A stretch of DNA of 24,143 bases, from the IMG/VR virus record IMGVR_UViG_3300030294_000156, positions 1 to 24,143 of that record. One strand, given 5' to 3'. Shown here piece after piece: positions 3,908-23,819 of the stretch. How positions within the stretch are numbered: the stretch's first letter is position 1; the number at the start of each line of letters is the position of its first letter. This DNA is from a virus. A program made the position numbers and the translations under genes. The notes under the pieces were generated by a model that worked only from the letters and a program-made list of their open reading frames with translations, ran no database searches and had not been told where the DNA came from.

Positions 3908-3934
3908 TTTAATGCTATTTTATTACTGTTTAAA

Positions 3935-6900
3935 TCAACTTCTACGAGACAGATTATTACGTCTCTGATAAACACCAACAAGATCACGGCCGCGTTGACG
4001 AAAAACTACCTCCCCACTTCCAAACCCCGAAGGCTGTATCATAGATTTCAGTTTATCCAAAGGTGCCGTTACCTCGGGATTGCGAGACGCATTGGCATAC
4101 TCTCCAAATAAACCCAACGTTGGGCCATAAGCTATATTTCCATTTGCAAATTTGGGAACAGCTGCGGCCACGATCATAGCTTGAAAAGAGGCTATCTGTG
4201 CAGTAGCCAAACCCTCACCAATAAAAGGAAGTCCTGCGTATGCTGCAACAGTTTTAGCTGCCGCAAGACCTGACCATGTAGCAGCTTCGGCACTGTTTGT
4301 TGCCATCTGTGCGGATGCTTGCGTGGTTTGCTCTACGGTTGTAGCAGACGTAAGCGCCTTAACAACCTGTATAATAGAACTAATTCCGTTAAATATCTCT
4401 ATACCCGCATCGACAATACCCGTTAACTTATCCCAGGCCGATCCGTTTCCCTTCAAGGTTGAAGAAAGATCCCTTATCCCATTTCCTACGGACTTTACGT
4501 CGCCCCACGTCTTCTCAAACGTAACTTGACTTTTACGAAGTTTTGCTTCATAATTTGTCCATTCTGTAATCTGAGATTTTATATTTTTTGCCTGTGCAGC
4601 AGAAGTGGAAGGTGAAGAAATAAGTTTATTAAGATCCGTTATCTTTTTCTTGATCCCATCAACACCAACTTCCTTAAGTCTTATCGTAACCTCTTTATCT
4701 GTCAAACCGCTTAAGTCAGACAATTCCACCTGTGTGGCCGACAGGTTTCCAAGATCTTGCAGAAGTTGACGTTTCCTTGTTAATGCCGCTACGGTTCCTT
4801 CAACAGCTGTCAATTGGTCGCCTTCTGCCGTTTGAGCCTGCTTGTTATAAAAAGTAATAGCGTCATCCAGTTGCTTGTATGTATTAAGTTCAGCGATGCC
4901 TGCAGGCTTGCTGGCAGCTTCATCCACCGACAACCACCCCTCTCTTATTTTATTCAGTTGATCAATCCGTGCAGCATACATCGGTCTGGTTACTGCATCT
5001 GCATTTTGTTGTGCATCCTGATAATACTTAATCGCATCATCAAGTTGTTTATAGGTGCTTATCTCGGTGACTAATGGCTCTATTTTAGTAGCCTTTTCCA
5101 TTGCGTCACGCTTGTCCTTAAGTTTCTGAATATTATTTGCTATTTCAGCCCGCTCACTGTCACCGGCATGTTTCAGCAGGTTCTCCTGTCTGGTAATCTC
5201 CGTTCCGTAATCTTCTAGCGTTTTCAGTTGTGCAGGCTTTGAATATTCCGCCTGCAATTCCTTGATAGCCTCCTGCTGACCCTTTGCCTTTTTAATGCTT
5301 TCACTAAGCGTCTGTATCTGTTTTTGATTTGAAGGGTCTGTAGCGTCAAGTTTCTTTTGCCAGATTTCAATATTATTTGCCAGATCCGCGTAACTCTTTG
5401 CGTCCTCAACAAGGACGTCGTCCTTCTTTTTCTTCTTTGTGTCCAAATCCGGACGATCAGGTGAACCAACTACAGGTATCTTTATTTTCCCGGCTTCGGC
5501 AGATGCTTCCTGCATCTGCTTTTTAAGACTGCTGACAGCCTCAGTATTCTTCTTTATTTTACTTTGTGCCTTTTCCAGATCACTCGACCCGGCCACTTCC
5601 ACTTCTGTTTGATATGATCCGGCGCCATTCGCGCTTTGCCATACGGTCTGCGTTTCCCTCTCTTTTGAGTATTTTTTAACGGTTCCGTTTTCGTTATATT
5701 TGAGCTCGTGATTTTCTTGTTCCTTTTTAGCGATCTCATCAGCCAGCGAACGCGTCCTAGCTTCAATCACCATCTGATCACAATATGCGGCACTATCTGC
5801 CGTCAAAGCCTTATACCAATCCGAAACGGTAGAGAAATAGCCAATCGTTGTCCCGTATGCGGAGTTCATCTCTTCCACTAGAGCCTTTTCTTTTTCCTTT
5901 GATCCATGAAACTCTTTTAGCTTCTGAATGTTTATTTCCAGCGCCGCACGTGTCTGCTGAAGCTGCTGTGACTCATTTTGCCGTGCCTGTGCGGCGTCAT
6001 CTACTGCCTGCTTTTGATCCTCTTCCTCTTTTGTAGCCCCGGAAGACTTCTCTGATAATTTTTCATAGAGAGAAATAAGCCCCTGGACGGCAAGGAATAG
6101 CCCAAAAGTCATCGTTGCATATAGTGCCACCATTGACGCACGAAGCACCCACGTGCTTGCCGTCGTTGTAATATTCATCGCTGTCAGTATTCCTTTTGCC
6201 TGAGCATCAAGTTTTGTTGCTGCAACTGATGCTAATTGCGTAATTCTGGATAAAGAAAAAGCAGTCGCAATACCCCTAACACCATTTGCTACATTTGTAA
6301 GTGCAAAAATTGTCATACCCAACTCACTCATTCCCGTCAAAAACGGCTCATATTCGGAAAGAGCCGCACCTATTTTCTTTTTTATATCATCAAAATTATT
6401 GGCGAGCTGTTTGGCCTTTCCGGCATCTGTCTGAGCAAGGTTTTGGTTCATCTGTCCGACATTGTCGGTTATTACTTGAGCTAGAGTGGCGGCACGTTGT
6501 TCTTCAGTACCATACTTGATAATCTGCGCTTGTGCATCCGTGAATGTAACACCAACGCGTGACAACACGCCTGTCTGGCCCTGCATGGCCTTACCCATCA
6601 TGTTGCCAATATTCACAGCATCCTCTTCGGTAGCGTTAAATCCTTTTTGCTGTGCCAACAAATTATTCATTGCAGGGATAAGCATCTCAAGGCTTTTACG
6701 CTTATTTAAGAAGGTGGCCAGTTGCTGAGATCCCGACAACTGTATATCGTCATCTACTATTCCCAGATTCTTCTGTGCTTCCGTCAGACGTTCAATGCCT
6801 TTAACATCACCTTCGGTAGCATTCATACGTTGCTTCATAACAGTCTGAAGCTTAACCTCTGCTGTTTCTTGAACAACATATAATCCGGTCAGGTTTCTGA

Positions 6901-7111
6901 TCTCTTCAGAAATTTGAGAAAAACCGTTAAACGCATTCTGTAACGCCATAGATGCCTGATTGATATCAAGCAGGCGACTATTCATGTGCTCAGCATTATT
7001 GCTCACCTGATTAATGGCCTCGCCGAGCTGGCGTGCATCCATCGTGACGGTTCTGACACTCTCCCCGCCCGCAGTTTCTATTTTGATCTGAAATGTTACC
7101 GAATTTGCCAT
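3935..7111 (-). CDS. Tail tape measure protein
   Basis: 1058 aa, the longest gene in the window, lying between the tail chaperone genes and the hub gene, as expected for a tape measure protein, which sets tail length and helps DNA pass the inner membrane. The sequence is mainly alpha-helical and Ala/Gln/Lys rich. Hydrophobic segments lie at about residues 264-286 and 319-347. Charged coiled-coil follows (350-410 and 450-545). A Lys-rich linker sits at 559-563. Four related units of about 46 residues occur at roughly 572-617, 628-673, 683-728 and 740-787, the last two sharing TYKQLDDAI. The C-terminus has the motif GPTLGLFGEYANASRNPEV followed by TAPLDKL, which is common at the end of Bacteroidales tape measure proteins. 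Start ATG 7111 lies 1 base after the stop of the preceding frame. Confidence 0.92.
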   Translation of the reverse strand: MANSVTFQIKIETAGGESVRTVTMDARQLGEAINQVSNNAEHMNSRLLDINQASMALQNAFNGFSQISEEIRNLTGLYVVQETAEVKLQTVMKQRMNATEGDVKGIERLTEAQKNLGIVDDDIQLSGSQQLATFLNKRKSLEMLIPAMNNLLAQQKGFNATEEDAVNIGNMMGKAMQGQTGVLSRVGVTFTDAQAQIIKYGTEEQRAATLAQVITDNVGQMNQNLAQTDAGKAKQLANNFDDIKKKIGAALSEYEPFLTGMSELGMTIFALTNVANGVRGIATAFSLSRITQLASVAATKLDAQAKGILTAMNITTTASTWVLRASMVALYATMTFGLFLAVQGLISLYEKLSEKSSGATKEEEDQKQAVDDAAQARQNESQQLQQTRAALEINIQKLKEFHGSKEKEKALVEEMNSAYGTTIGYFSTVSDWYKALTADSAAYCDQMVIEARTRSLADEIAKKEQENHELKYNENGTVKKYSKERETQTVWQSANGAGSYQTEVEVAGSSDLEKAQSKIKKNTEAVSSLKKQMQEASAEAGKIKIPVVGSPDRPDLDTKKKKKDDVLVEDAKSYADLANNIEIWQKKLDATDPSNQKQIQTLSESIKKAKGQQEAIKELQAEYSKPAQLKTLEDYGTEITRQENLLKHAGDSERAEIANNIQKLKDKRDAMEKATKIEPLVTEISTYKQLDDAIKYYQDAQQNADAVTRPMYAARIDQLNKIREGWLSVDEAASKPAGIAELNTYKQLDDAITFYNKQAQTAEGDQLTAVEGTVAALTRKRQLLQDLGNLSATQVELSDLSGLTDKEVTIRLKEVGVDGIKKKITDLNKLISSPSTSAAQAKNIKSQITEWTNYEAKLRKSQVTFEKTWGDVKSVGNGIRDLSSTLKGNGSAWDKLTGIVDAGIEIFNGISSIIQVVKALTSATTVEQTTQASAQMATNSAEAATWSGLAAAKTVAAYAGLPFIGEGLATAQIASFQAMIVAAAVPKFANGNIAYGPTLGLFGEYANASRNPEVTAPLDKLKSMIQPSGFGSGEVVFRQRGRDLVGVYQRRNNLSRRS

Positions 7112-7112
7112 T

Positions 7113-7475
7113 TTATTCTATTCCACGTTTTTTCTTTATTTCCCCATAACGCTGCCGTTCCTTTTCGGGATCCATTTTGCAGGTTTCTGTTTTCCCATCG
7201 TCCTTATTGTCCCACTCAAACCGGATAATATCTTTTGGATCCAGCTTGTCTGTTGTGTGCATTCTGACGTAATAAAAACATTGCATACGCGTTTGCTCCC
7301 ATTCGGCGCGTTCTTCGTTTTTCTTTCCCGTCGTCCACGCTTCAACAATCTCGTTAAACTCACGTGGGGTGCATCTGTCAAAGTCCATAACACTCATACC
7401 GATACGCCCCACTGCAAGCCCCAAGAGAATGTCAATATCTATTATTTCACTGTCTGAACTGTTTTTTTTTCAGGA
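7113..7475 (-). CDS. Tail assembly chaperone, downstream (T-like) frame, probably made only as a -1 frameshift extension
   Basis: The T-like frame ends at 7113 and has no good start: the first possible initiator in the non-overlapping part is TTG at 7424, with ATG only at 7397. The frame is -1 relative to the upstream 99-aa gene and is entered naturally at the A9 run 7462-7470. A shift there would join 93 residues of the upstream protein to 116 residues of this frame (209 aa, ending at 7113). The downstream part has D-F-D-R-C-T-P-R-E-F, a Trp/Lys-rich helix and a charged end. In phage lambda the G and G-T proteins are made in this manner and act on the tape measure protein during tail assembly; the next gene here is indeed the tape measure. 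Coordinates given include the slippery region. Confidence 0.72.
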
Positions 7476-7741
7476 TCGAGCAAAGCCGAGAATCCCTGTA
7501 TTGCATCACTGTCCAGGCGATCTGTAAAATCAACGAGATCGTATGGCATTTCTATTCCTTCAGCATTACAGGTACTCTTGCAGCAGCACCACACAAGAAC
7601 GGCCATATCAGCCGCACCGTCTATCTGACTTACGTCGTGTCCCGTCTCTTCCTTAAACCTGCGCATTGCGCCCAATGTCAACTTGCAGGGAAAAGACTTC
7701 CCATCAGATGTCGTAATCGTTATCTTTATCTTTTCTGCCAT
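7442..7741 (-). CDS. Tail assembly chaperone, upstream (G-like) frame
   Basis: 99-aa acidic protein between the tail tube gene (2-base gap) and the T-like frame. It contains the pattern K-L-T-L-G-A-M-R-R-F-K-E-E-T-G typical of small tail chaperones, in which a beta-hairpin leads into a helix before an all-helical body; a C-C-C-K-S-T-C cysteine cluster is at about residues 52-57. The gene ends 7 codons after an A9 run, the place where lambda-type G genes carry the slippery sequence for G-T synthesis. Function by family knowledge: binds the tape measure protein and recruits tail tube subunits; it is not part of the finished virion. Confidence 0.72.
   Translation of the reverse strand: MAEKIKITITTSDGKSFPCKLTLGAMRRFKEETGHDVSQIDGAADMAVLVWCCCKSTCNAEGIEMPYDLVDFTDRLDSDAIQGFSALLDPEKKTVQTVK
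7463..7469 (-). other. Candidate -1 ribosomal frameshift site (A AAA AAA)
   Basis: On the minus strand the G-like frame reads GAA AAA AAA ACA at 7471-7460. The third base of GAA plus two AAA codons form the heptamer A AAA AAA, an efficient bacterial -1 slippery sequence. Shifting back one base enters the T-like frame, which then stays open for 116 codons. I see no strong hairpin just downstream; only a weak 4-bp TTCA/TGAA stem is visible. Confidence 0.65.
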
Positions 7742-7743
7742 AA

Positions 7744-8190
7744 TTATGCTCCCGTATTTTCAGTGATCACGCCGGCTGTCATGGTGCCGTCTTTCACAGC
7801 CCCACTGTTGTCGAGTGTGATACTGTATGTCTCGTCATCTCCGGCCTTTCCTTCCTGGTCAAGGCTTGAAATAACGAAGTCTCCATACTCAACGGTTTGA
7901 GAGTCCCGATAGTTCCATGATGCTTGCACTGATTCGCCTGCCTTGAATACTTTTTTAAACTCCGGAAGTCCTGCCACGTCGCCATCAAACACAAAGCCTC
8001 CTGCAGTAATTGTGGCAGTAAGACTTTTCACATATTTCTCCGCCCATTTACCACTGTTTGATTCTTTTGTTTTACGGGTTCCGGTTTCGGATTTATAACC
8101 GATTTTACATTCCGTAGAATGGCCAATAGCCGTCTGTTTTCCTGCTATGGGAATAGACAATATAAGGTCAGTTCCATCTCTATAATCCAT
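7744..8190 (-). CDS. Major tail tube protein
   Basis: 148-aa beta-rich protein with few hydrophobic helices. It has the architecture of phage tail tube subunits: an N-terminal D-L-I-L-S-I, a G-K-W-A-E-K-Y-V-K-S-L-T-A-T-I-T-A strand pair, a W-N-Y-R-D central strand, and a long G-x-D-D-E-T-Y-S-I-T-L-D-N-S-G beta-hairpin near the end. Its position just before the tail chaperones and the tape measure gene is the standard place for the tube protein, which polymerises around the tape measure. ATG at 8190 overlaps the end of the preceding lysis gene by 11 bases (TATTATGGATTATAG). Confidence 0.75.
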   Translation of the reverse strand: MDYRDGTDLILSIPIAGKQTAIGHSTECKIGYKSETGTRKTKESNSGKWAEKYVKSLTATITAGGFVFDGDVAGLPEFKKVFKAGESVQASWNYRDSQTVEYGDFVISSLDQEGKAGDDETYSITLDNSGAVKDGTMTAGVITENTGA

Positions 8191-8731
8191 AATACCATTT
8201 TTTTAAGTTGATTTTCTTTTTCTTGATGATCCATATCGCGACCGCAATAAGCGCCACGACAGCCAGAATGATAACATCGAATACGGAAAAGAAATGCACC
8301 TTAATAGGCTTTATCTCCGTTGTTTTTGTAACCGCTGCTTTCACATCGTTCTTTGATGTTGATGACGCATTGCTACTTATCGATGCTGTTGTCTTTACTT
8401 TAGAGGGTGCAACCGCTTCGGCGGTGGCAACAATCCCTTTGCCGGTCTTTTTCAGCGTAACACGCGTTGTTTTATTTGTCTGCGTGTAACTTGCTCCCGT
8501 CGGAAGTGCTTCCAGCTGCGGGATCGTTACTTCCAGCGCTGCCGTGTCCACCTGCGGGGGTTCCACTTCGGTTATCAGCGTTGATGCCGACATCGCCACC
8601 GCCGACACACTGTCCTTTATCTGAGGATTCTGAACCGCTATCGTCCGGGTCGACTGACAACTCATTGCGAACAGGGCACTGCATATTATGAGGGCATTTC
8701 TGGATTGCCTGAATAGCCTTTTTGAGACCAT
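8180..8731 (-). CDS. Candidate unimolecular spanin (lipoprotein signal plus C-terminal membrane anchor)
   Basis: Start chosen at ATG 8731 (an alternative ATG is 8755), because this leaves a basic N-terminus, a hydrophobic segment and a lipobox L-F-A-M-S-C with the Cys at residue 25; the ORF extends upstream in frame to 8932 but that part is a shadow of the overlapping gene. The mature part is a Pro/Thr/Ser/Ala-rich, predicted extended periplasmic region of about 120 residues. It ends in a transmembrane segment (about residues 150-169 from this start) and a strongly basic tail K-K-K-K-I-N-L-K-K. A lipid-anchored N-terminus plus a C-terminal inner membrane helix is the topology of u-spanins such as phage T1 gp11, which join the two membranes in the last step of lysis. 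It lies beside the amidase gene. The alternative is an o-spanin partner of the overlapping gene with an extra anchor. Confidence 0.65.
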   Translation of the reverse strand: MVSKRLFRQSRNALIICSALFAMSCQSTRTIAVQNPQIKDSVSAVAMSASTLITEVEPPQVDTAALEVTIPQLEALPTGASYTQTNKTTRVTLKKTGKGIVATAEAVAPSKVKTTASISSNASSTSKNDVKAAVTKTTEIKPIKVHFFSVFDVIILAVVALIAVAIWIIKKKKINLKKWYYGL

Positions 8732-8984
8732 TAATGGCACGTTTAAGATTTCCATTTTCTGTTCTGATTTTTTCAAATTCTGTTTGTATTTCTTCATATT
8801 TTTTTTGTGTTTTCTCAAGCAGGGCGGAAACGTCGTCGTACATAGACTTAAACGTATCGTGCACATCCTTGGCCGCAAGCGACTCTCGCACCTTTGCGCT
8901 TTTTCTGTTTGCAAGCCACGCGATTGCAGCACCTATACCTCCACCCGGTATTGCCCATTGTAATATTGCTAATATCGTGCCCAT
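8472..8984 (-). CDS. Coiled-coil inner-membrane lysis protein (i-spanin or holin-like)
   Basis: 170 aa. One N-terminal hydrophobic segment (residues 3-24, with G-G-G at 14-16) is followed by a long charged coiled coil (about 41-96) with Asn/Glu/Lys heptads, then C-P-H-N-M-Q-C and a Gly/Ser/Asp-rich, low-complexity tail (110-170). The membrane segment plus coiled coil resembles the Rz-type inner membrane spanin. The low-complexity tail is the part that overlaps, in another frame, the lipoprotein gene ending at 8180, so its composition may be imposed by the second frame. It starts 10 bases after the amidase stop. No separate holin is visible in the window, so a holin role cannot be excluded. 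Confidence 0.6.
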   Translation of the reverse strand: MGTILAILQWAIPGGGIGAAIAWLANRKSAKVRESLAAKDVHDTFKSMYDDVSALLEKTQKKYEEIQTEFEKIRTENGNLKRAINGLKKAIQAIQKCPHNMQCPVRNELSVDPDDSGSESSDKGQCVGGGDVGINADNRSGTPAGGHGSAGSNDPAAGSTSDGSKLHADK

Positions 8985-8994
8985 ATTCTTAATT

Positions 8995-9450
8995 TTATAG
9001 TCTTATACTCTTAATCCATGAAGGGACGTCGAAAGAAGGACAAGCCTTTCCGGGATTCAACTGATGATGACCAACGATTTCTGCGCCGGGATGTCTGCGG
9101 TGGAAGTCTTTGACATATTTAATCAACGCCGCATTCTGCGCATCCGTTCGGGTATCTTTCGGCTTTCCGGATTCATCCACACCGCCCACATATACCACGT
9201 GGCGGCTGGTACTATTATATCCGGCAGCACCGTTGCTTATCTCCCATGGGTCAACATTGTTGTCCTCATTGTAGGGTATCATATTTTCAACACCTCCATT
9301 AAGATGTATCATATCCGAATATCCTACCTTTTTCCATCCCCTTCCGCCCTTGCTTACCGGATCGCAGTGCCAGTGCCTTATTTCAGCACTGGTCACCTCA
9401 CGACCTTCCGGGGTTGCGGTACAATGAATGACGAGTCTTTTAAGTTCCAT
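8995..9450 (-). CDS. N-acetylmuramoyl-L-alanine amidase (endolysin, T7 lysozyme family)
   Basis: About 151 aa, a single Amidase_2/PGRP-type domain that cuts the amide bond between muramic acid and the stem peptide. The residues expected for T7-lysozyme-type zinc enzymes are present (numbered from the GTG at 9453): H10 in V-I-H-C-T-A-T, Y44 in G-Y-S-D-M-I-H, H129 or H130 in G-H-H-Q-L-N-P, K136 and C138 in K-A-C-P-S-F-D. No signal peptide, so release to the periplasm would need a holin or membrane lesion. ATG 9450 preferred; GTG 9453 is immediately upstream. It follows the capsid gene by a few bases and precedes the spanin-like genes, forming a lysis cassette between head and tail genes. Confidence 0.92.
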   Translation of the reverse strand: MELKRLVIHCTATPEGREVTSAEIRHWHCDPVSKGGRGWKKVGYSDMIHLNGGVENMIPYNEDNNVDPWEISNGAAGYNSTSRHVVYVGGVDESGKPKDTRTDAQNAALIKYVKDFHRRHPGAEIVGHHQLNPGKACPSFDVPSWIKSIRL

Positions 9451-9457
9451 CACTCAA

Positions 9458-10507
9458 TTATGCCTTTGTACCTGAGTAAATAGCCACATTTGCATCCTCC
9501 TTTTTAGGCATACAGATGAAATAATGGCAAAAATTGATCTCATTGCGCTGATACCGCGGGTTTGTCTGAGCGTCACGGTAGTACATTTTCATACTTCCGG
9601 TAGCTTTGAATACGCGCGGAACATAATACGCAAAAGAGGCCTGTTTGTCTGTTGTACCTGGCGTTGTTCCAACAGCCACCTTGACACCCAAAGTTGTATA
9701 ATATGGGTTGTTGACAAACTGGTAAATCTCAAATCCGTACATATTGGTAATCTTACCGGTCTCATACTGGTAGAATTGCTGCGCGAATCTCTGCTCCTGC
9801 TCTAAAAGGTCATTGATGTGATCAGGGCAAAGTACCAGGCGGCGACCGTCAAGTGGAACCTTAGCCTTATCCATGGCACGTTTCAACTTAATAACATCCT
9901 TCACGGTCAACTTTAGGCGACCTGTACCGTCATCATCTCCGGACGTAATAAATACGGGCGTTGTCGTAGTATCCTGTGTCGGACACAGTGCATGTGCCGC
10001 CTTGGTGAATTCCGCATCGGCTAAGGCATTCCGGTGACTTTCCTGTATGCGTGACATTTTATCGTAGCTTATAGCGTACAGCTCATCATCAGTGAGTGGG
10101 GTGACTTTTGTCTGAAATTTGTCTAGCGATATCGCTTTATCGGTATCGTCCAAATCCTGTAAATCGATAGGATAAGTCGTGTTGTTTATCAGCACGTCGG
10201 GATCCACACCAACATCCACAAGATGTATGACGTCGTTTTCAACGACCGACGAACTGTCCGGAACGCCGGCTAACCATGTCCCGTCAAGTCCTGCGCGGAG
10301 ACGTTTGATCATTTCTCCTGTCCAGATCTCTGTCAATATACCTTCTCGTAATGAGCCTTCAGGGGCAAACTGCGAAAACATACCGGCTACCACATTTGCA
10401 CCGATGGCGCACGTAATAGCATCTGCACCCATCATGTGGGCGAACAATACGCCGACCATGCTGTTCAACATGACGGCAGCAAGAATTGCTGTTAATACTT
10501 TCTTCAT
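9458..10507 (-). CDS. Major capsid protein
   Basis: 349 aa, directly downstream of the protease-scaffold gene, the canonical place of the coat gene (T in Mu). Central and C-terminal parts match phage coat proteins in composition and motifs: the L-T-D-D-E-L-Y-A-I-S-Y-D segment, R-R-L-V-L-C-P-D-H-I-N-D-L-L, G-F-E-I-Y-Q-F-V-N-N-P-Y-Y, and a C-terminal Y-Y-R-D-A-Q-T-N-P-R-Y-Q-R-N-E-I-N-F region, all suggestive of the HK97 fold. The N-terminus is unusual, with M-K-K followed by about 20 hydrophobic residues, looking like a signal peptide; in-frame ATGs exist at codons 13, 17, 25 and 26. The first ATG is kept because upstream spacing (about 16 bases) fits. Confidence 0.85.
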   Translation of the reverse strand: MKKVLTAILAAVMLNSMVGVLFAHMMGADAITCAIGANVVAGMFSQFAPEGSLREGILTEIWTGEMIKRLRAGLDGTWLAGVPDSSSVVENDVIHLVDVGVDPDVLINNTTYPIDLQDLDDTDKAISLDKFQTKVTPLTDDELYAISYDKMSRIQESHRNALADAEFTKAAHALCPTQDTTTTPVFITSGDDDGTGRLKLTVKDVIKLKRAMDKAKVPLDGRRLVLCPDHINDLLEQEQRFAQQFYQYETGKITNMYGFEIYQFVNNPYYTTLGVKVAVGTTPGTTDKQASFAYYVPRVFKATGSMKMYYRDAQTNPRYQRNEINFCHYFICMPKKEDANVAIYSGTKA

Positions 10508-10523
10508 ATCTTAAAAATGTTTG

Positions 10524-11021
10524 TTATACCGGACATTCCAATCCGTACTCGGCCTTGTACAGAACGCGATACTTGTTAATGTCGTCAGCCTTGAGCTGCA
10601 CCTGCGATTCAGGTGACATGTCGCTTAATTTCTTCGCGTCTGTATTTCCTGTAGCCCCACCGCCCTGGTGACCCATTACCAAGGTTCCAAGTTTAACAGC
10701 AGGTTGCATACTGTCGAGAACCTTTGACAGTCCTTCGGCTCCAAGCTTTGCGCCCAGCTCTACAAATTCAGCCTTTTTGTCGGCATTCAGCTTTTTCTCT
10801 TTGACAGCGTCATCAACCAGCTTCTCGATCACACTGCTGGTAATCTTTGCTTTTTCGGCCTCAAGGCCAGCCTTCTCTTTTGTCAGGGTTTCAACCTGTG
10901 TTTGCAAATCGGTAACAGTCTTGTTTCCGTTTGTTTGCATCTCTGCGATCTTTGCGTTGATCGCTGCCTCGTCCGCCGTCTCCGGGAGTCCGAGTTTTAC
11001 TGCTAAAATCTTCTGATCCAT
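10524..11021 (-). CDS. Possible separate scaffold protein from an internal start (Mu Z-like)
   Basis: An in-frame ATG at 11021 (codon 159 of the protease-scaffold gene) sits exactly at the boundary between protease and scaffold parts and is preceded by an A-rich, GC-poor leader (ACAAAATAACAAAAAAC), the kind of context Bacteroides genes use for initiation. It would give a 165-aa scaffold. In Mu the scaffold Z is made from an internal start within I. Inferred by analogy plus context. Confidence 0.5.
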   Translation of the reverse strand: MDQKILAVKLGLPETADEAAINAKIAEMQTNGNKTVTDLQTQVETLTKEKAGLEAEKAKITSSVIEKLVDDAVKEKKLNADKKAEFVELGAKLGAEGLSKVLDSMQPAVKLGTLVMGHQGGGATGNTDAKKLSDMSPESQVQLKADDINKYRVLYKAEYGLECPV

Positions 11022-11495
11022 GTTTTTTGTTATTTTGTTAATTAAAGGAAGCGTGTTTTCTCCACCCTGTCCGCATGTTAATACGTGACCGTTGCGGGTT
11101 AGTCGAATAGCATCGTCATTTGCGCCGATGTCTACCAGACTAACCTCGCATAATTTTGATTTTGTAATTGTCGGTCGGGTTTGGCCGATAACCAGAAGAT
11201 TCGGGTCATCGGATAATTCTATAATGTCAATACCTATTGAAGTCATACGGATGGAACCTTTATCAAACTGCTGTTTGAGCTGTTTTGACAAGTCGGTAAC
11301 CTCATCAAACACAAGTTCGCAGGTTATGTCGTCACCTTCTTTTGCAATACCTGTCACAAACCCTATTACGTTTCCACGTTCGTGCATCCATAATAACACC
11401 GGATTTCGTTGATACTGACTTATATCCAACCCATCGGTGAGGACGCGTGTCCCGTAACTGTTAAGACTACTGTTTGTTATTCTTACTCGTGCCAT
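10524..11495 (-). CDS. Prohead protease with C-terminal scaffold domain (Mu I/Z type)
   Basis: 323 aa, two parts. Residues 1 to about 140 form a prohead serine protease domain, with H38 in W-M-H-E-R-G and S119 in C-E-V-S-L-V-D-I-G-A-N as likely catalytic residues. Residues about 159-323 form a helical scaffold domain (L-G-L-P-E-T-A-D-E-A-A-I-N, long coiled coil 190-220, C-terminal M-S-P-E-S-Q-V-Q-L-K-A-D-D-I-N-K-Y). The scaffold part contains the L-G-L-x-x-x-A-D-E-A-A pattern seen at the C-terminus of Mu gpI. The protease matures the procapsid and clips the scaffold. First gene of the leftward structural operon, about 68 bases downstream of a promoter-like site. Confidence 0.88.
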   Translation of the reverse strand: MARVRITNSSLNSYGTRVLTDGLDISQYQRNPVLLWMHERGNVIGFVTGIAKEGDDITCELVFDEVTDLSKQLKQQFDKGSIRMTSIGIDIIELSDDPNLLVIGQTRPTITKSKLCEVSLVDIGANDDAIRLTRNGHVLTCGQGGENTLPLINKITKNMDQKILAVKLGLPETADEAAINAKIAEMQTNGNKTVTDLQTQVETLTKEKAGLEAEKAKITSSVIEKLVDDAVKEKKLNADKKAEFVELGAKLGAEGLSKVLDSMQPAVKLGTLVMGHQGGGATGNTDAKKLSDMSPESQVQLKADDINKYRVLYKAEYGLECPV

Positions 11496-11516
11496 ATTTT
11501 TATCATTTATAAAATC

Positions 11517-11550
11517 GAGGCCGCTACTCTAGCCTTAGCTTCACGGCCTC
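11517..11550. promoter_or_regulatory. Hairpin in the leader of the structural operon
   Basis: GAGGCCG (11517-11523) and CGGCCTC (11544-11550) form a 7-bp GC-rich stem with a 20-base loop. It lies between the leftward promoter-like site and the protease start codon (11495), so it would be in the 5' leader of the late mRNA. It may stabilise the transcript or attenuate it; there is no T tract of terminator type directly after it on the minus strand, though an AT-rich run follows. Confidence 0.45.
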
Positions 11551-11569
11551 TCTATCCACATTTCTGCTG

Positions 11570-11601
11570 CAATATTACATCACTTTTTGCACACATCCAA
11601 A
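11570..11601 (-). promoter_or_regulatory. Leftward late promoter candidate (Bacteroides type)
   Basis: On the minus strand TTTG (11601-11598) is followed after 20 bases by TAATATTG (11577-11570). This fits the Bacteroides primary sigma pattern TTTG then TAnnTTTG with one mismatch. It points toward the protease, capsid, lysis and tail operon. Confidence 0.5.
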
Positions 11602-11612
11602 AAAGTGTGCAA
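11587..11612. promoter_or_regulatory. Inverted repeat over the leftward promoter, operator candidate
   Basis: TTGCACAC (11587-11594) and GTGTGCAA (11605-11612) are perfect 8-base arms separated by 10 bases (centre spacing 18 bases, close to two helical turns). The -33-like TTTG lies between the arms. This is a good candidate binding site for a dimeric late activator or repressor. The half-site TTTTTGCAC recurs at 11674-11682 near the rightward promoter. Confidence 0.5.
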
Positions 11613-11648
11613 CGGTGGCGCACTATTGTGTAGGGCGTGCGTCGTTTT

Positions 11649-11679
11649 TTTGTAATGTGACCGATTATTAGCATTTTTG
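11649..11679 (+). promoter_or_regulatory. Rightward packaging-operon promoter candidate
   Basis: TTTG (11649-11652) and CATTTTTG (11672-11679) are separated by 19 bases, one mismatch from the Bacteroides -7 consensus TAnnTTTG. The small terminase ATG follows at 11700, giving a very short leader. Confidence 0.4.
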
Positions 11680-11686
11680 CACTGTT

Positions 11687-11700
11687 TAAAACGCGTTTTA
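11687..11700. promoter_or_regulatory. 14-bp palindrome touching the small terminase start codon
   Basis: TAAAACGCGTTTTA is a perfect palindrome whose last base is the A of the ATG at 11700. It lies just downstream of the rightward -7 candidate, over the predicted transcription start, which is a typical place for a repressor operator. Confidence 0.45.
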
Positions 11701-12167
11701 TGAAAAAACTAGAAATTGAAAGCAAAAAGGCACTTGCCCGTACATTATACCTTACCGGGTTGGAGCAGGCTGATATAGCCGAAAAAATCGGGGTGGGAAA
11801 AAATACCATTTCAAAATGGTGTGTATCAGAAAGCTGGAAGGAACAGCGTGCCGCCACACAGGTGACACGTCCCGAACTTGTCAACAAGGTTCTGATCACA
11901 ATCGACACCCTTCTGACACAGATACAGGAAAGCAATAGCCCGGAACTGATTGCTTCCGCTCCGGACAAACTTGCAAAGCTGGCGGCAGTCATTCAGAAAC
12001 TTGATAAGAAAGCAAATACGGTAGATGTCATCGAGGTGTTTATGGCATTCAGCAAATGGCTTGAATTCAGATCCAACACAGACCCGGAAGTAACCCCTGA
12101 ACTGATGAAGACTTTTAATAAGTATCAGGATAAATATATACTATACAAATTAAGTTCTAATTCCTAA
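11700..12167 (+). CDS. Terminase small subunit (HTH DNA-binding)
   Basis: 155 aa. Residues about 10-40 hold a helix-turn-helix: A-R-T-L-Y-L-T-G-L-E-Q-A-D-I-A-E-K-I-G-V-G-K-N-T-I-S-K-W, followed by S-W-K-E-Q-R, the usual signature of small terminase subunits of Mu-type phages. The rest is helical and probably oligomerises. The gene precedes the large terminase by 3 bases. Expected role: recognises the packaging start on phage DNA and loads the large subunit. First gene of the rightward packaging operon. Confidence 0.85.
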   Translation: MKKLEIESKKALARTLYLTGLEQADIAEKIGVGKNTISKWCVSESWKEQRAATQVTRPELVNKVLITIDTLLTQIQESNSPELIASAPDKLAKLAAVIQKLDKKANTVDVIEVFMAFSKWLEFRSNTDPEVTPELMKTFNKYQDKYILYKLSSNS

Positions 12168-12170
12168 GTT

Positions 12171-13724
12171 ATGCTGTCGGAACAAAAAGAAATACTCGAA
12201 AGGTGGCGAGAACATTGTACACGAGTACAAAAGTTAACAGCCCTGGACGCACACGAAACGGACAGCGAGAAAAGTGCGCGTATCAAAAAACTCAGAAACA
12301 ACTACGCTGCGTTTTGCGAGTATTACTTCCCCCATTATCTGACACAATACGATAAGGCAACAGGGGAGCCTGTTAAGATAACGCATAACGCTCCTTTTCA
12401 TAACGAAGCGGCAAAGAAAGTAAAAGAGACTCCGAATTTAAAGGCAGCCTTTATGTGGCCGCGTGGACACGCAAAATCTACACACTTCGATGTATTCATG
12501 CCTTTGTGGCTGATCTTTCAGCCAAAGAGACTGATCAACGTCATGGTTGTTGTCAGCAAGTCAGAAGATGCCGCAAAAGGTCTCTTGGGAGACATCCAGG
12601 CAGAGTTTGAAGCAAACCAAAGAATCATTAATGACTACGGGTCACAGAAGAGTGGTGGAGACTGGCAGGATGGTGAGTTCGTGGCACAGTGCGGTGTAGC
12701 CTTCTTTGCACGTGGTCGCGGACAAAGCCCCCGAGGCCTTCGTTATAAGGAAGCACGTCCCGATTATATCGTTATCGACGACCTTGACGATGACGAACTT
12801 TGCCGAAATGAACGGCGTATTCATGAGATGTCTGAGTGGGTAAAGACGGCATTGTTTGGTGCCACCGACGTCGGACGTGGCCGCTTCATTATGGTGGGAA
12901 ACCTGATTAGCAAGACATCTGTATTACAAGAATTTTCAGAGACAAAAGACGTTTTCTTATCTAAAATAAAAGCGGTTGACGCAACCGGGAACCCTATATG
13001 GAAAGAAAAATGGACAAAGCAGGAAGCCGAGGCCATGCGCACTTTCATGGGGTACCGCAACTGGGAAAAGGAGATGATGCACAACCCCATCAAGGAAGGT
13101 ACCATCTTTAAACGCGACTGGATTAAATATAAAAAGATATTTCCGTTACACCAATACGACCAACTGATCGTTTACATTGACCCGTCATTCAAGGGAACCA
13201 CGAAAAACGACTATAAGGCAGCAAGATTCTGGGGCCGCAAAGGCAAAGAGTTCCACCTGATAGACTGTTATGTTCGCCAGGACAGCGTGAGAGGAATGGT
13301 TCGGTGGTGTTACAACCTGTGGGAAAGCCTTCCCGAAAATGCGGCAGTAGTATGGTATATGGAAGCGAACTTCATGCAGGACACCCTTCTCGATGAATTT
13401 GAGCGCGAAGGAGACGAGCGGGGACACCAGCTACCATTAACACCAGACAACAGAAAAAAACCCGATAAGATAGCGCGTATTGAGGCCGTATCCCCTTTAT
13501 GGGAACGCGGTTTTATCTATTACAATATCGACAAAACAAATGATCCTGACATGATTGCAGGAATCGACCAGACACTGGGACTCGAGCGAGGAAGTACCGT
13601 CCATGACGACGCACCTGACGCCGACGAAGGTGCTATATGGAAGTTTCAGAAGTCCACACGTACTGAAGCTTTCGTGCCCATTATGGGCGGACGTCATAAT
13701 ATTAACAAACATAATTCATGGTAA
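12171..13724 (+). CDS. Terminase large subunit
   Basis: 517 aa, the usual size. The N-terminal ATPase has a Walker A-like segment P-R-G-H-A-K-S-T (97-104) and a Walker B Y-I-V-I-D-D (199-204) followed by L-D-D-D-E-L. The C-terminal RNase H-like nuclease has acidic residues D337 in Y-I-D-P-S-F and D479/D480/D484 in V-H-D-D-A-P-D-A-D-E-G. Together these are the ATP-driven packaging motor and headful nuclease that fill the procapsid through the portal. In a transposable phage the nuclease cuts in flanking host DNA after passing the phage end. Confidence 0.95.
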   Translation: MLSEQKEILERWREHCTRVQKLTALDAHETDSEKSARIKKLRNNYAAFCEYYFPHYLTQYDKATGEPVKITHNAPFHNEAAKKVKETPNLKAAFMWPRGHAKSTHFDVFMPLWLIFQPKRLINVMVVVSKSEDAAKGLLGDIQAEFEANQRIINDYGSQKSGGDWQDGEFVAQCGVAFFARGRGQSPRGLRYKEARPDYIVIDDLDDDELCRNERRIHEMSEWVKTALFGATDVGRGRFIMVGNLISKTSVLQEFSETKDVFLSKIKAVDATGNPIWKEKWTKQEAEAMRTFMGYRNWEKEMMHNPIKEGTIFKRDWIKYKKIFPLHQYDQLIVYIDPSFKGTTKNDYKAARFWGRKGKEFHLIDCYVRQDSVRGMVRWCYNLWESLPENAAVVWYMEANFMQDTLLDEFEREGDERGHQLPLTPDNRKKPDKIARIEAVSPLWERGFIYYNIDKTNDPDMIAGIDQTLGLERGSTVHDDAPDADEGAIWKFQKSTRTEAFVPIMGGRHNINKHNSW

Positions 13725-13725
13725 A

Positions 13726-13956
13726 ATGAAAGAATTGATCAAACGTTTATTTTTCAGCTGGAGATTTAAAAAATCAGTTAAAAAAGCAGACGAAATGCAC
13801 AGGCTGACGGCATTGAAATATTTCGTCATCGTACTGAATGGAAAACTAAAGGTTGTCGCAAAGCAAGATATCAAGCGACTGATAAGAATGCGGTACTTCC
13901 GAAAGGGGACTCGTGTCGAACAGATTGAACAAAGGGCTTTATATATAACACGATAA
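13726..13956 (+). CDS. Small basic protein of unknown function in the packaging operon
   Basis: 76 aa, starting at ATG 13726, one base after the TerL stop codon (TAAaATG), with its stop one base before the next ATG (TAATATG). This tight spacing argues that it is real. Very basic (many Lys/Arg) with aromatic residues F-F-S-W-R-F near the N-terminus and no clear motif. A longer in-frame extension upstream (from 13555) overlaps terminase and is rejected. No function recognised. Confidence 0.6.
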   Translation: MKELIKRLFFSWRFKKSVKKADEMHRLTALKYFVIVLNGKLKVVAKQDIKRLIRMRYFRKGTRVEQIEQRALYITR

Positions 13957-13957
13957 T

Positions 13958-14386
13958 ATGACACTTACGGTAAATGATTACATGTCCGTCATCAGCGAAA
14001 TGTCTTACAAAAGCATTTCACAGGGAAACGAAGAAAGTGTCCGCCGTTCAGAGACGGAGGCACGGGAAGAAATAAGCGGATATCTCAGACCTGTGTATGA
14101 CGTGGAAAAAATATTTTCCGCAGAGGGAGAGGAAAGAAATCCGCAGATCGTTATGCTGATGACAGACATTACCTTATATCATCTTTCTGCTTCATCGCCA
14201 CAGAAGATGGGTGTAGAGGTCAGAAAAGAGAGATATGAACGCTCAATAAAATGGCTGGAAGGGGTTCAATCCGGAAAGATTGTCCCCGACATACCACGCG
14301 TTAAAACAACAGACAGCGACGGAAACACTTCCGACGCCGGGGTTCTTATTTATGGATCTAATACTAAATTACATCATGATTGGTAA
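13958..14386 (+). CDS. Mu gp36-like head-tail connector component
   Basis: 142 aa. N-terminal V-N-D-Y-M-S-V-I, a helix with R-R-S-E-T-E-A-R-E-E-I-S-G-Y-L-R-P-V-Y-D-V, and a second helical part M-L-M-T-D-I-T-L-Y-H-L-S-A, then R-Y-E-R-S-I-K-W-L-E-G-V-Q-S-G-K. This helical layout matches the DUF1320/gp36 family and gp6-type adaptor proteins, which sit under the portal. It lies directly before the portal gene, consistent with that role. The stop overlaps the start region of the portal gene (TAATATG). Confidence 0.7.
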   Translation: MTLTVNDYMSVISEMSYKSISQGNEESVRRSETEAREEISGYLRPVYDVEKIFSAEGEERNPQIVMLMTDITLYHLSASSPQKMGVEVRKERYERSIKWLEGVQSGKIVPDIPRVKTTDSDGNTSDAGVLIYGSNTKLHHDW

Positions 14387-20555: not shown

Positions 20556-20876
20556 TTATAATACTTTTTTTTCTTCATATAAGACCTTGAGACCGCAAGA
20601 CGATGCAACGTCAAACTCCAACTTTGCGCCCTTCGACTGCTCCCAACCGTCTAGTAAATAGATATAGTCACACTCAAGTAACATCTGTATGTCCTTTCTC
20701 ATGTGTTCGCGCCAGTGAGCACCTTCGTCAAGACCATTTTTAAAAGGATTAACAGGTACCATTCCCATGCTATTTATTTTATTCTCTGCTTCCATAAATG
20801 CGAGTTTACGCTCGTAGATATCGTAGTGCTCAATGGCACCACTGATATAGATTCGGATATTATTTTTTTTCGTCAT
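20556..20876 (-). CDS. DUF4406 protein (nucleoside 2-deoxyribosyltransferase-like fold)
   Basis: 106 aa from ATG 20876; ATG 20882 is also possible, while the longer frame to 21041 lies inside the upstream gene. Motifs: R-I-Y-I-S-G-A-I (start of a Rossmann-like beta-alpha unit), G-M-V-P-V-N-P-F, H-W-R-E-H-M-R-K-D-I, C-D-Y-I-Y-L-L-D-G-W-E-Q-S-K-G-A-K-L-E. These match the DUF4406 family, related to nucleoside deoxyribosyltransferases. Overlaps DUF4494 by 17 bases. May act on nucleotide pools or DNA modification; unproven. Confidence 0.82.
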   Translation of the reverse strand: MTKKNNIRIYISGAIEHYDIYERKLAFMEAENKINSMGMVPVNPFKNGLDEGAHWREHMRKDIQMLLECDYIYLLDGWEQSKGAKLEFDVASSCGLKVLYEEKKVL

Positions 20877-21312
20877 ACTCATATACGCAAAAGATAGGTG
20901 TTTCGGAAACCTGAGAAAACTCATAATCAGCCATCGTCCCTTCCATTCCGGAAATAGTTTTCTTAATAGCATCGCGAAGAGATGCACCCTGAACGAGAAA
21001 TGTACTAAATGTTTTCTTTTCATATCCACTTCGTTCGTCAATAGTAAAAAAGGCCAATTTAACCTTAAACCACTGGCATTCTATTTCTGAATCTTCGACG
21101 AACACATGCTTAAAATTAGCCTCTTTGATTCCCTTGATTTCAAACTCTTCTGAAGTGAAAAGCTTTATTTCTTCTGTAATGCGCGACTCGGCCTCTGTGT
21201 AACTTAAGGACTCAACAACATAAGTTTCTGTTACCTTTTTAATGGTACCGTTTTCCTGTAGTTGATTGAGACGAACTTTGCATTCGTACCAGCTTGATGT
21301 TTTTTCTTTCAT
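20860..21312 (-). CDS. DUF4494 family protein
   Basis: 150 aa. W-Y-E-C-K-V-R at the N-terminus, E-T-Y-V-V-E-S-L-S-Y-T-E-A-E-S-R-I, W-F-K-V-K-L-A-F and F-L-V-Q-G-A-S-L-R-D-A-I-K match DUF4494, a Bacteroidales family common in phages and mobile elements. No catalytic motif visible. Two repeats of a beta-beta-alpha unit (residues ~8-50 and ~80-125) are evident, each with a V-x-S/G-x-S-x-x-x-A pattern. Function unknown; good indicator of a Bacteroidales host. Confidence 0.8.
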   Translation of the reverse strand: MKEKTSSWYECKVRLNQLQENGTIKKVTETYVVESLSYTEAESRITEEIKLFTSEEFEIKGIKEANFKHVFVEDSEIECQWFKVKLAFFTIDERSGYEKKTFSTFLVQGASLRDAIKKTISGMEGTMADYEFSQVSETPIFCVYEYDEKK

Positions 21313-21335: not shown

Positions 21336-21635
21336 TTATTTCTCAGCCAATAGACTATATAGTTTATTTGCACGATTAAGAATAATCGTCCTTGAATCTC
21401 CGTCAGACGCTTCACAACTTTCACTCCAAATTGTAATCCATATACAGAACACTTTTACCTGTATTCTGGCAATATATACCACCGGAAGGTCTTCAAGGCT
21501 CCCGATTAACGACTGCTTAAGCATAAGGCTGTTATCTCCCGATTGCGAAAGTATCATAGCTTCAGCCATAGCGCGCGTATCCTCTATCTTTTCAGATACC
21601 CGAGCGCAAATTCTATATTTATCTATTGTTTTCAT
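21336..21635 (-). CDS. Hypothetical early protein
   Basis: 99 aa, not recognised. A helix-rich N-terminus (E-K-I-E-D-T-R-A-M-A-E-A-M-I-L-S-Q) leads to V-V-Y-I-A-R-I-Q-V-K-V-F-C-I-W-I-T-I-W, a hydrophobic strand pair that is probably buried rather than membrane-spanning, and a helical end. Lies between the lectin-like gene (20-base gap) and DUF4494, all leftward. Likely real from spacing and from filling the gap. Confidence 0.55.
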   Translation of the reverse strand: MKTIDKYRICARVSEKIEDTRAMAEAMILSQSGDNSLMLKQSLIGSLEDLPVVYIARIQVKVFCIWITIWSESCEASDGDSRTIILNRANKLYSLLAEK

Positions 21636-21655: not shown

Positions 21656-22315
21656 TTAAAAGTTAAATGCTGACACTGGCCTCACAGCGTTCAGGATGCT
21701 CACCTTAGCGCTCGAGCTCAGGCTGCCGTTGCCGAGGGCCAAGTACCATGCGTTCGTCGCTGAGTTCTCAGTCGATGTCCAATACCATTTGCCCTCTATA
21801 GAGGTTCCACCTGCAGCTATTATGGCCTCGTTAACCTTCTTTCTATGAAGATAGATAAATAGCATTTCTGCTACAGACGGAATATATTGACCTGATTCCA
21901 ACTTAATACGACTGTTTAGACCTATTTCTTTCAGATGTTCCGTGTTTTCCGCACCATTCCAGTCAGCAACTGCATCCAAACGATTATCAATATAGTTATC
22001 ATAGACAGTCGTGTCTTTATTTTCCGTCAACTCAACGTCGTCACCATCGGCAGCATCTTCAAGCGCAACGGCGATCGACCTGCTACCAAGTTTTATTCCA
22101 ACTGCCACACAATTTGTTGCGTCACATCCCTTCGTGTACAACACAGGATCACCCTCTTTTTTGATAAGATAAACACCGTCAACTAATTCGGTTGACGAAC
22201 ATCTGCAAGATTTTTCACTTTCGGCCATAACAAAGTCATAGGCCTTTTTTGCTTTCTCTACATTGCCTTTGCACATAGACAAAAGTCTCATTTTTGTTTC
22301 TTGATTTTCTAACAT
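21656..22315 (-). CDS. C-type-lectin-fold / DUF1566-like protein with DGR-like variable C-terminus
   Basis: 219 aa with no signal peptide. Residues about 46-90 read D-G-V-Y-L-I-K-K-E-G and A-V-G-I-K-L-G-S-R-S-I-A-V-A-L-E-D; residues about 119-170 read W-N-G-A-E-N-T-E-H-L, then Y-I-P-S-V-A-E-M-L-F-I-Y and I-I-A-A-G-G-T, followed by W-Y-W-T-S-T-E-N-S and a conserved end V-R-P-V-S-A-F. This is the layout of DUF1566/fibrobacter-type lectin-fold target proteins of diversity-generating retroelements, whose variable residues cluster between W-T-S-T-E and V-R-P-V. The early position, between the RecA-like ATPase and DUF4494, is unusual for a ligand-binding virion protein. A domesticated invariant copy is the alternative. 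Confidence 0.78.
   Translation of the reverse strand: MLENQETKMRLLSMCKGNVEKAKKAYDFVMAESEKSCRCSSTELVDGVYLIKKEGDPVLYTKGCDATNCVAVGIKLGSRSIAVALEDAADGDDVELTENKDTTVYDNYIDNRLDAVADWNGAENTEHLKEIGLNSRIKLESGQYIPSVAEMLFIYLHRKKVNEAIIAAGGTSIEGKWYWTSTENSATNAWYLALGNGSLSSSAKVSILNAVRPVSAFNF
21665..21787 (-). other. Candidate DGR variable region (VR)
   Basis: Codons for residues 177-217 differ from the rest of the gene: high GC, with AAC at residues 184, 188, 196 and 209, TCG, CTG, CTC, AGC and AGG common, whereas the rest of the gene is AT-rich. AAC codons are the usual template for adenine mutagenesis in DGRs. No reverse transcriptase or template repeat is in this window. Confidence 0.6.
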
Positions 22316-22326
22316 AATCGTTAAAT

Positions 22327-22950
22327 TTAAACTTTATTATTTACTTTAATAATCCCTTCTTCCCAAACTGGATAGTAGCTTCCTGGTTCTCCGGTAAACC
22401 TGCCCATACAGTAAGCTTTATATCCTGCTACTCTTATTTTTACGCCGGCCAGATATCGAAGCCTGTTTGCACTCTTGCCCGACGGCTGACCTTTATACTC
22501 CTGGCTGATATAGATAAAAGACTTTGACGGGAATCGATCCTTCAGATCCTTTGCCTGTTTGTATGTCCATTCTGCCACTTGAAAACTGTCGACGATAATA
22601 AAATGTGGGCTCTTTTGTTTTTCCAACCGGCTAACCAAATCCTCGTAACTGTCATCCGTTGCCACCCGGAAACGACCTTGCACGTCATTCATTTTAAACC
22701 GCTCAATTCTCTCCTGAAAAGATTGTGAAATCTGCTCTTCGTAACTGAGGTAAAGTGTTGGACCAACTTCGCAAAGCTTTTTTGCCAACTGCATCGCAAA
22801 GCTACTTTTTCCGCCCGCGGACGATCCGCTAATAAACCACATTTCGTTAACCGCCGGACATCCAAAAGGGCCACTCCACTTTTCGTCCCATTCCAAGCTC
22901 TCATATTTCTTTCTTTCTATATCTTTTGGGCTGTAAGCTCTCTTACTCAT
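22327..22950 (-). CDS. RecA/DnaB-superfamily ATPase
   Basis: 207 aa with Walker A G-S-S-A-G-G-K-S (42-49), likely catalytic glutamate in Y-E-E (70-72), Walker B H-F-I-I-V-D-S (116-122), and a Y-I-S-Q-E-Y strand (about 151-156). This resembles RadA/DnaB-type cores lacking a full helicase fusion. ATG overlaps the MuB-like stop by four bases (ATGA), so expression is coupled. Its place after MuB suggests work in replication or strand exchange during transposition; the specific partner is unknown. Confidence 0.8.
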   Translation of the reverse strand: MSKRAYSPKDIERKKYESLEWDEKWSGPFGCPAVNEMWFISGSSAGGKSSFAMQLAKKLCEVGPTLYLSYEEQISQSFQERIERFKMNDVQGRFRVATDDSYEDLVSRLEKQKSPHFIIVDSFQVAEWTYKQAKDLKDRFPSKSFIYISQEYKGQPSGKSANRLRYLAGVKIRVAGYKAYCMGRFTGEPGSYYPVWEEGIIKVNNKV

Positions 22951-23819
22951 GCCTGTTTTGCTTTTTCAATGATCGTATATACACGGCGAAGGGCACCGCC
23001 CGACTTACGAGCTATCTCACTGGCGTCAACACCTTCCGGGGCATTTACCTTTGCCACGATTCTCGCCTGTTCCCTCATGAAATCATCCCGTTGCTTCCCA
23101 TCGTCTGGAGTTACACGGCTGTAATGGTCTCCGTAACGGCTCAGCATTTCAGCATAACCCACCTTACAGCCTTCAACACTTCGGTTAATCTTTGCCTTAA
23201 GTCCGTCGGCTCCCATCATGTACCAACCGCAACAGCGTTCCGTGGCGTTCCATAAAGCCTTCAGCTCTAAAAAGGCCTCGTACGCAAGGTCTCCGGCTTC
23301 GTCGAGGATTATCAACGGTGTTTCCATGCTGCGCAGGTAGTAAATAAGATCATCATACATATCCTGGTACTTTCCGGTTATTCCAACACCAAACTCCTTT
23401 GATATCTTGCGGACTAAAGATCGTTTTGTCTTTGTCTGACTGCAATCTACATAAATGGCGTTGGCGTGACCGGAAACATATTGGCGTGCGGTGAATGTTT
23501 TCCCGATATTTGGAAGGTCACATAAGATCGCCGACAGACTTCCGGACTGACATGCCTGCAACTGTGTTGTGATATATTGAAATGTTGCCGTCTTTGCGGC
23601 TTTCCACTCGATTCCTTCACGCAAGCTCACGTTCAGTCGACGTGATAGGGATATCCAGTTTGCCTCACTGAGCATCCTGTCAGTCTGACCGTTTTTAAGC
23701 TGGCTGTATACTGAATTTGTAATGCCAAGACTGGCGGCATGTTTCGCGTCAGATGGGTAGTTTGTGCGGTTTGCTGCTACGGCTGCAAGAATCCGTTTTT
23801 TCATGTCATTTGTTACCAT
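22947..23819 (-). CDS. MuB-like transposition target-selection ATPase (AAA+)
   Basis: 290 aa. N-terminal HTH region (about 24-64: A-K-H-A-A-S-L-G-I-T-N-S-V-Y-S-Q-L-K-N-G-Q), P-loop D-L-P-N-I-G-K-T (101-108), Walker B L-I-I-L-D-E-A-G-D (169-177), and a C-terminal helical domain ending G-G-A-L-R-R-V-Y. The HTH plus AAA+ layout is that of Mu B, which binds target DNA, forms filaments and brings it to the transposase. The first glycine of the Walker A consensus is replaced by Asp101. The gene lies directly downstream of the transposase. Confidence 0.9.
   Translation of the reverse strand: MVTNDMKKRILAAVAANRTNYPSDAKHAASLGITNSVYSQLKNGQTDRMLSEANWISLSRRLNVSLREGIEWKAAKTATFQYITTQLQACQSGSLSAILCDLPNIGKTFTARQYVSGHANAIYVDCSQTKTKRSLVRKISKEFGVGITGKYQDMYDDLIYYLRSMETPLIILDEAGDLAYEAFLELKALWNATERCCGWYMMGADGLKAKINRSVEGCKVGYAEMLSRYGDHYSRVTPDDGKQRDDFMREQARIVAKVNAPEGVDASEIARKSGGALRRVYTIIEKAKQA

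Follow-up and report, generated by a model that had tools for sequence, protein, structure and literature searches.

Phage DGRs are usually read as receptor-switching tools. The DGR of BPP-1 carries out adenine-specific mutagenic retrohoming into the C-type-lectin variable region (VR) of a phage protein, Mtd (summarised in PMC6199706), and its single target is the tail-fibre protein by which host tropism is determined. Second targets that are remote or non-structural are already known, from the Bacuni phages and from Quimbyvirus. In Bacuni F1, F2 and F4 (MT635598, MT806186, MT806185) one template repeat (TR) serves both an early-region and a tail-side target, and the former, 'VR1', which lies far from the reverse transcriptase (RT), has been published as a remote target and interpreted as a fimbrial-tip adhesin (PMC8143477). 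Quimbyvirus ORF 84 is a non-structural C-type-lectin DGR target located away from the virion genes and near counter-defence genes, and a role in conflict has been proposed for it (PMC8008677). Phages with two targets in one DGR cassette have also been published (PMC10743442). The clade-5 cellular DGRs of Thiohalocapsa diversify C-type lectins proposed as conflict-system sensors, and some of these targets are remote (PMC10907252). Hankyphage p00 (PMC6199706; OY725592) is Mu-like, a Bacteroides phage whose early block encodes transposase, MuB and ATPase; its DGR has a single TR-VR pair, on the tail side.

The window, as the whole stretch of DNA analysed is called here, comprises positions 1-24,143 of IMG/VR record IMGVR_UViG_3300030294_000156 and is a 24-kb fragment of a phage. 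We conclude that a 219-aa protein encoded in it is very likely, indeed close to certain, a remote target of the phage's own DGR, with retrohoming itself being inferred. The gene and its parts are as follows.

21656..22315, minus strand: remote DGR target gene, 219 aa, with an N-terminal helical hairpin and a C-type lectin fold (gene call and model)
21668..21772, minus strand: VR of 105 nt, with nine differences to the TR, all at TR adenines (TR alignment)
21659..22177, minus strand: C-type lectin domain, residues 47-219 (AlphaFold2 model)
22223..22315, minus strand: N-terminal two-helix hairpin, residues 1-31, common to the early-target family (model)

The protein belongs to the same family as Bacuni VR1 (44% identity) and shares its distance from the RT and its use of a TR that also serves a tail-side target. 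The Bacuni phages differ in being of siphophage type with a recombinase, not Mu-like, and in lacking the partner gene described below (P0006), for which the phage collection gave no match. Quimbyvirus ORF 84 resembles the window target as a non-structural lectin, a status that is inferred for the window protein, but the phage type is unrelated and homology of the targets has not been established. BPP-1 is alike in mechanism and differs in its single tail-fibre target, while the Thiohalocapsa elements are bacterial and accompanied by NACHT and effector genes, none of which were seen in the phages studied here. The MuB of Hankyphage is only 28% identical to that of the window. No early VR was found in Hankyphage by the scan used here, which recovered its known TR-VR pair and thus had a positive control. 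To our knowledge, based on the open-access literature searched, neither the family itself nor its occurrence in the early region of three phage backgrounds has been described, and the same holds for its Mu-like member and the partner gene. Remote targets are said to escape a large survey that looks only beside the RT (PMC8144416), and early-region targets would be overlooked by such surveys because they are far from the RT.

The window itself contains no TR, no RT and no second copy of the VR (whole 24,143 nt searched). The missing components were located on contig IMGVR_UViG_3300028739_000030 (L011), one of the relatives fetched with the 219-aa protein as query, which overlaps the window as follows.

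1..14049, no strand: stretch common to the window and L011, 100% identical over the entire L011-contig match (1-7071 likewise 100%)

L011 continues past window position 1 into a tail-side target, Avd, TR and RT, that is, a complete DGR, with TR and RT ∼4.1-4.3 kb outside the left end of the window. The joined phage rests on the overlap of two contigs, and no single contig holds both ends. The early VR and the TR are ∼26 kb apart in it, and the VR at 21668-21772 is therefore that of a remote target. The TR was found by a scan that allows mismatches at template adenines. VR and TR share 96 of 105 positions, and all nine mismatches fall on TR adenines (probability by chance 1.7e-5). The 3' boundary of the VR reads CAGCATTT where the TR reads CAGCACTT, a difference seen in most family phages and identical to that at the tail-side target. 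A degenerate TR pattern searched in IMG/VR matched the same phage only. The RT on L011 is full-length and intact (RVT_1, E 3e-19; YVDD motif), and the accessory protein matches bAvd (E 6e-13). The tail-side target (P0011) is DUF1566-like, and its VR differs from the same TR by 13 adenine-only mismatches, so that one TR matches both targets.

AlphaFold2 predicted (pLDDT 90) an N-terminal two-helix hairpin, a flexible linker and a C-type lectin domain. The top solved structures in Foldseek were 8q4e and 4eps, with Legionella Lcl and a B. ovatus fimbrial tip as the proteins concerned, while the Pfam lectin match (DUF1566 domain) was weak. The N-terminus differs from that of P0011, whose N-terminal part is absent, and a search for the hairpin in other ORFs of the fetched loci gave nothing convincing. 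Adenine-only VR/TR differences, the presence of RT and Avd in the same phage (via the overlap) and a lectin fold with a C-terminal VR were criteria for a DGR target that the protein satisfies; a further criterion, VR variation between close relatives, is satisfied by family members, the window's own phage having a single VR.

These results bear on an earlier note made from the sequence alone. It had placed a DGR-like variable region at 21665-21787, which held, the repeat proper lying inside that span, and its reading of a lectin-fold protein with a C-terminal variable region also held (AlphaFold2, Foldseek). It had described the codons as GC-rich and AAC-rich; the former was confirmed (60% GC in the repeat versus 40.5% in the remainder of the gene), the latter only in part, since other codons have mutated and 4 of 35 VR codons are still AAC. 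The checks it proposed, for a TR with adenine-only mismatches and for a DGR RT, were both met in the same phage, on L011 and not in the window. Invariance of the region among related genomes, which it had named as refuting, was not observed, as close family relatives differ mainly in the VR.

Members of the early-target family occur on more than 40 contigs from phages and prophages. A profile built from the sequence outside the VR retrieved 26 IMG/VR loci and 20 genome loci, some of them from the same phage, and a DGR-type RT was located in 22 of 36 profile-found records. A TR could be aligned for 21 early targets. Adenines account for 34% of TR positions in this set, and 286 of 294 core mismatches fell on them. 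The TR was in the target's own contig with four exceptions: the window was aligned to the TR of its companion contig via the overlap, L132 to that of a companion contig from the same metagenome, L063 to the TR of L062, a sister contig nearly identical to it, and L081 to one carried by another contig of its genome. VR/TR indels in the set are three bases long; the early VRs of L075, L084, L089 and L092 each carry one such indel, which lies in the AAC-rich part and in every case preserves the frame. At the threshold used, no TR was found in flanks of up to 10 kb around the early genes; TRs were located ∼10-50 kb away or on another contig, and where one contig holds both, the early target lies from ∼10 kb to more than 50 kb from TR/RT. 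For L074, L082 and L090, no TR was recovered in the vicinity of the RT located in the respective genome.

Close relatives show that change is concentrated mainly in the VR. Of the 18 differences between L062 and L063 across 16,749 bp, 17 cluster in 70 bp at the early VR. For other close pairs, identity falls from 94.9-98.7% outside the VR to 77.5-89.2% within it, and dN/dS rises from 0.06-0.30 outside to >1 inside in every case for which the VR ratio is defined. The family is thus under purifying selection outside the VR and changes rapidly inside it. The early target may nevertheless turn over more slowly than the tail-side one, a possibility raised because its VR is identical in four contigs of the window's own phage (the window and three more, same strain) and because Bacuni F1 and F4 have the same early VR and different tail VRs. 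One of the 17 VR-proximal differences between L062 and L063 is a 1-nt insertion in the early VR (L062:7851-7920) that breaks the frame, possibly a dead variant or an assembly mixture.

The genes surrounding the target in the window are listed below.

22947..23819, minus strand: MuB-like DNA transposition protein (phrog_296, E 1.5e-38), marking the early transposition block
22327..22950, minus strand: ATPase (phrog_6891), upstream border of the insertion
21336..21635, minus strand: partner gene P0006, 99 aa, immediate downstream neighbour of the lectin gene
20860..21312, minus strand: DUF4494 gene, third gene of the block missing at this site in the three nearest Mu-like relatives
20556..20876, minus strand: gene which we take to be DUF4406-like, downstream border of the insertion, found after the ATPase, directly or past one small ORF, in relatives

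The lectin gene is in the MuB-ATPase early block, in a transcription block separate from the structural genes. A Mu-like phage was recognised by MuA/MuB in an early block, and MuB satisfies this criterion; only the last ∼96 codons of the gene upstream of MuB are inside the window, and MuA itself was not identified there, though relatives have it. MuB was not found in the available fragments of the L132/L010 phage. In three Mu-like relatives (MuB 62-74% identical) the ATPase is followed by the DUF4406-like gene, directly or after one small ORF, and relative to them the lectin, P0006 and DUF4494 genes therefore look inserted at one site.

In the first set of loci the P0006 family occurs solely behind the early lectin. 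A partner-first search of IMG/VR retrieved 25 contigs, and the lectin was directly upstream in 22; of the others, one is cut off and two, from one phage, have a repeat protein in its place. In these two (L147:2324-2884 and L148:1330-2010) the P0006-family gene follows a tandem-repeat ORF with CDNATVEACG-type units, the number of which differs between the contigs. Early lectins without P0006 exist, in the Bacuni and the 100-kb phages. The structure of P0006 could be modelled only moderately, with no recognisable fold match.

A simple hydropathy and motif check of 43 family members detected neither a signal peptide nor a lipobox, nor any strongly hydrophobic segment at the N-terminus, in agreement with the earlier note, which had reported no signal peptide. 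Its placement of the gene in an early transposition operon away from tail genes also held, and its location between the ATPase and DUF4494 held in part, as the 99-aa gene adjoins and DUF4494 is next. Its suggestion of an early-made protein with an intracellular or host-surface role is supported, with early expression, a cytoplasmic stay and non-virion status all inferred. Three features had escaped it: the tail-side target diversified in the same phage, the partner gene of the lectin, and the recurrence of the arrangement in further phages.

The explanation we favour, with moderate confidence, is an early intracellular binding protein directed against a varying host or rival factor; expression, localisation and ligand binding are inferred. 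The protein would be made early, together with the transposition and replication genes, and would remain cytoplasmic. Through its lectin face, where the DGR codons vary, it would bind a strain-variable or fast-changing factor of the host or a competitor, most likely a defence protein or a protein of a superinfecting phage, and the hairpin and the P0006-family protein may couple binding to an effect, for example blocking or recruiting. The DGR would then tune entry, through the tail target, and an intracellular step, through the early target, with a single template. Action inside the cell is likely in our view, resting on the absence of export signals, on replication, transposition and modification neighbours and on an N-terminus that differs from the tail-side target's; involvement in phage-host or phage-phage conflict is no more than a best guess and is untested. 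The conservation of an early-region target family far from the RT suggests that diversification by phages extends to a protein that works intracellularly. A bolder version, to which we would not quite commit, is that many Bacteroidales phages carry a two-gene module of a DGR-diversified intracellular lectin and a small partner, forming a rapidly evolving counter-defence or inter-phage weapon that draws on the same template as the tail. Cultured phages with the gene (Bacuni F1/F4, BS-TP1) make the question directly testable.

Against the favoured reading stand the lack of expression, localisation and binding data, the early VR that is unchanged in the window's own phage and between Bacuni F1 and F4, the want of a fold match for the partner family and the absence of a PADLOC match for lectin or partner; moreover, structural genes of phages can be located outside the tail block. 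A less likely possibility is that the protein acts in the virion, as a second adhesin or a minor component of the particle or tail tip, and that its diversification shifts host range. The fold does resemble the B. ovatus fimbrial tip and Legionella Lcl, and the Bacuni authors call both targets fimbrial tip-like (PMC8143477). However, in three phage backgrounds the early lectin has replication or transposition genes as neighbours, and in the window phage its transcription block is not that of the structural genes; the N-terminal part seen in the tail-side target is absent, the early lectin having a helical N-terminus of its own, and its partner gene is outside the structural block. The criteria for a tail adhesin, location in the tail module and an N-terminus like that of the tail-side target, are accordingly unmet. 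Display on, or release from, the infected or lysogenic cell, where the protein would block receptors and cause superinfection exclusion, appears unlikely: surface glycans or receptors would be fitting ligands for a diversified lectin, and known surface lectins have this fold, but the 43 family members lack the export features looked for.

That the gene is a mere bystander, a relic target retaining retrohoming sequences and mutated without function, is very unlikely. The frameshifted L062 variant, unless an assembly error, indicates that loss is tolerated at least sometimes; strong purifying selection outside the VR, three-base VR indels and a partner conserved across distant phages argue against it. 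An ordinary DUF1566 domain with only a chance resemblance to a DGR target, for which the weak Pfam lectin match might speak, is all but excluded by the presence in the same phage of a TR that matches over 105 nt with mismatches at adenines only, and by 20 parallel cases. PADLOC gave no match for the lectin or P0006, and neither has been assigned to a defence family.

The family gene sits among replication, transposition or modification genes in each of the three backgrounds. In Bacuni-type phages it is near DNA polymerase A, a C5-methyltransferase and a primase, and in the ∼100-kb phages a UG27-type RT is a few genes away. The latter, BS-TP1 gp79 (L041:11476-12738) and its homologues, 3-6 genes downstream of the early lectin, was identified by PADLOC as RT_UG27 (E 4e-228); it was rejected as the DGR RT, being of UG27 type and with a better DGR RT match located elsewhere. 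The crAss-like phage csAssE-Sib encodes a related DUF1566/DUF3988 protein (L048:9797-10633) near an AAA ATPase and a polyA polymerase, with no TR within 10 kb. The module is also present on rumen MAG contigs labelled Elusimicrobia or Saccharibacteria (L073, L075, L077 and L078). These are probably misbinned Bacteroidales phage sequence; in the family gene, L075 and L077 are 98% identical to IMG/VR contig L055.
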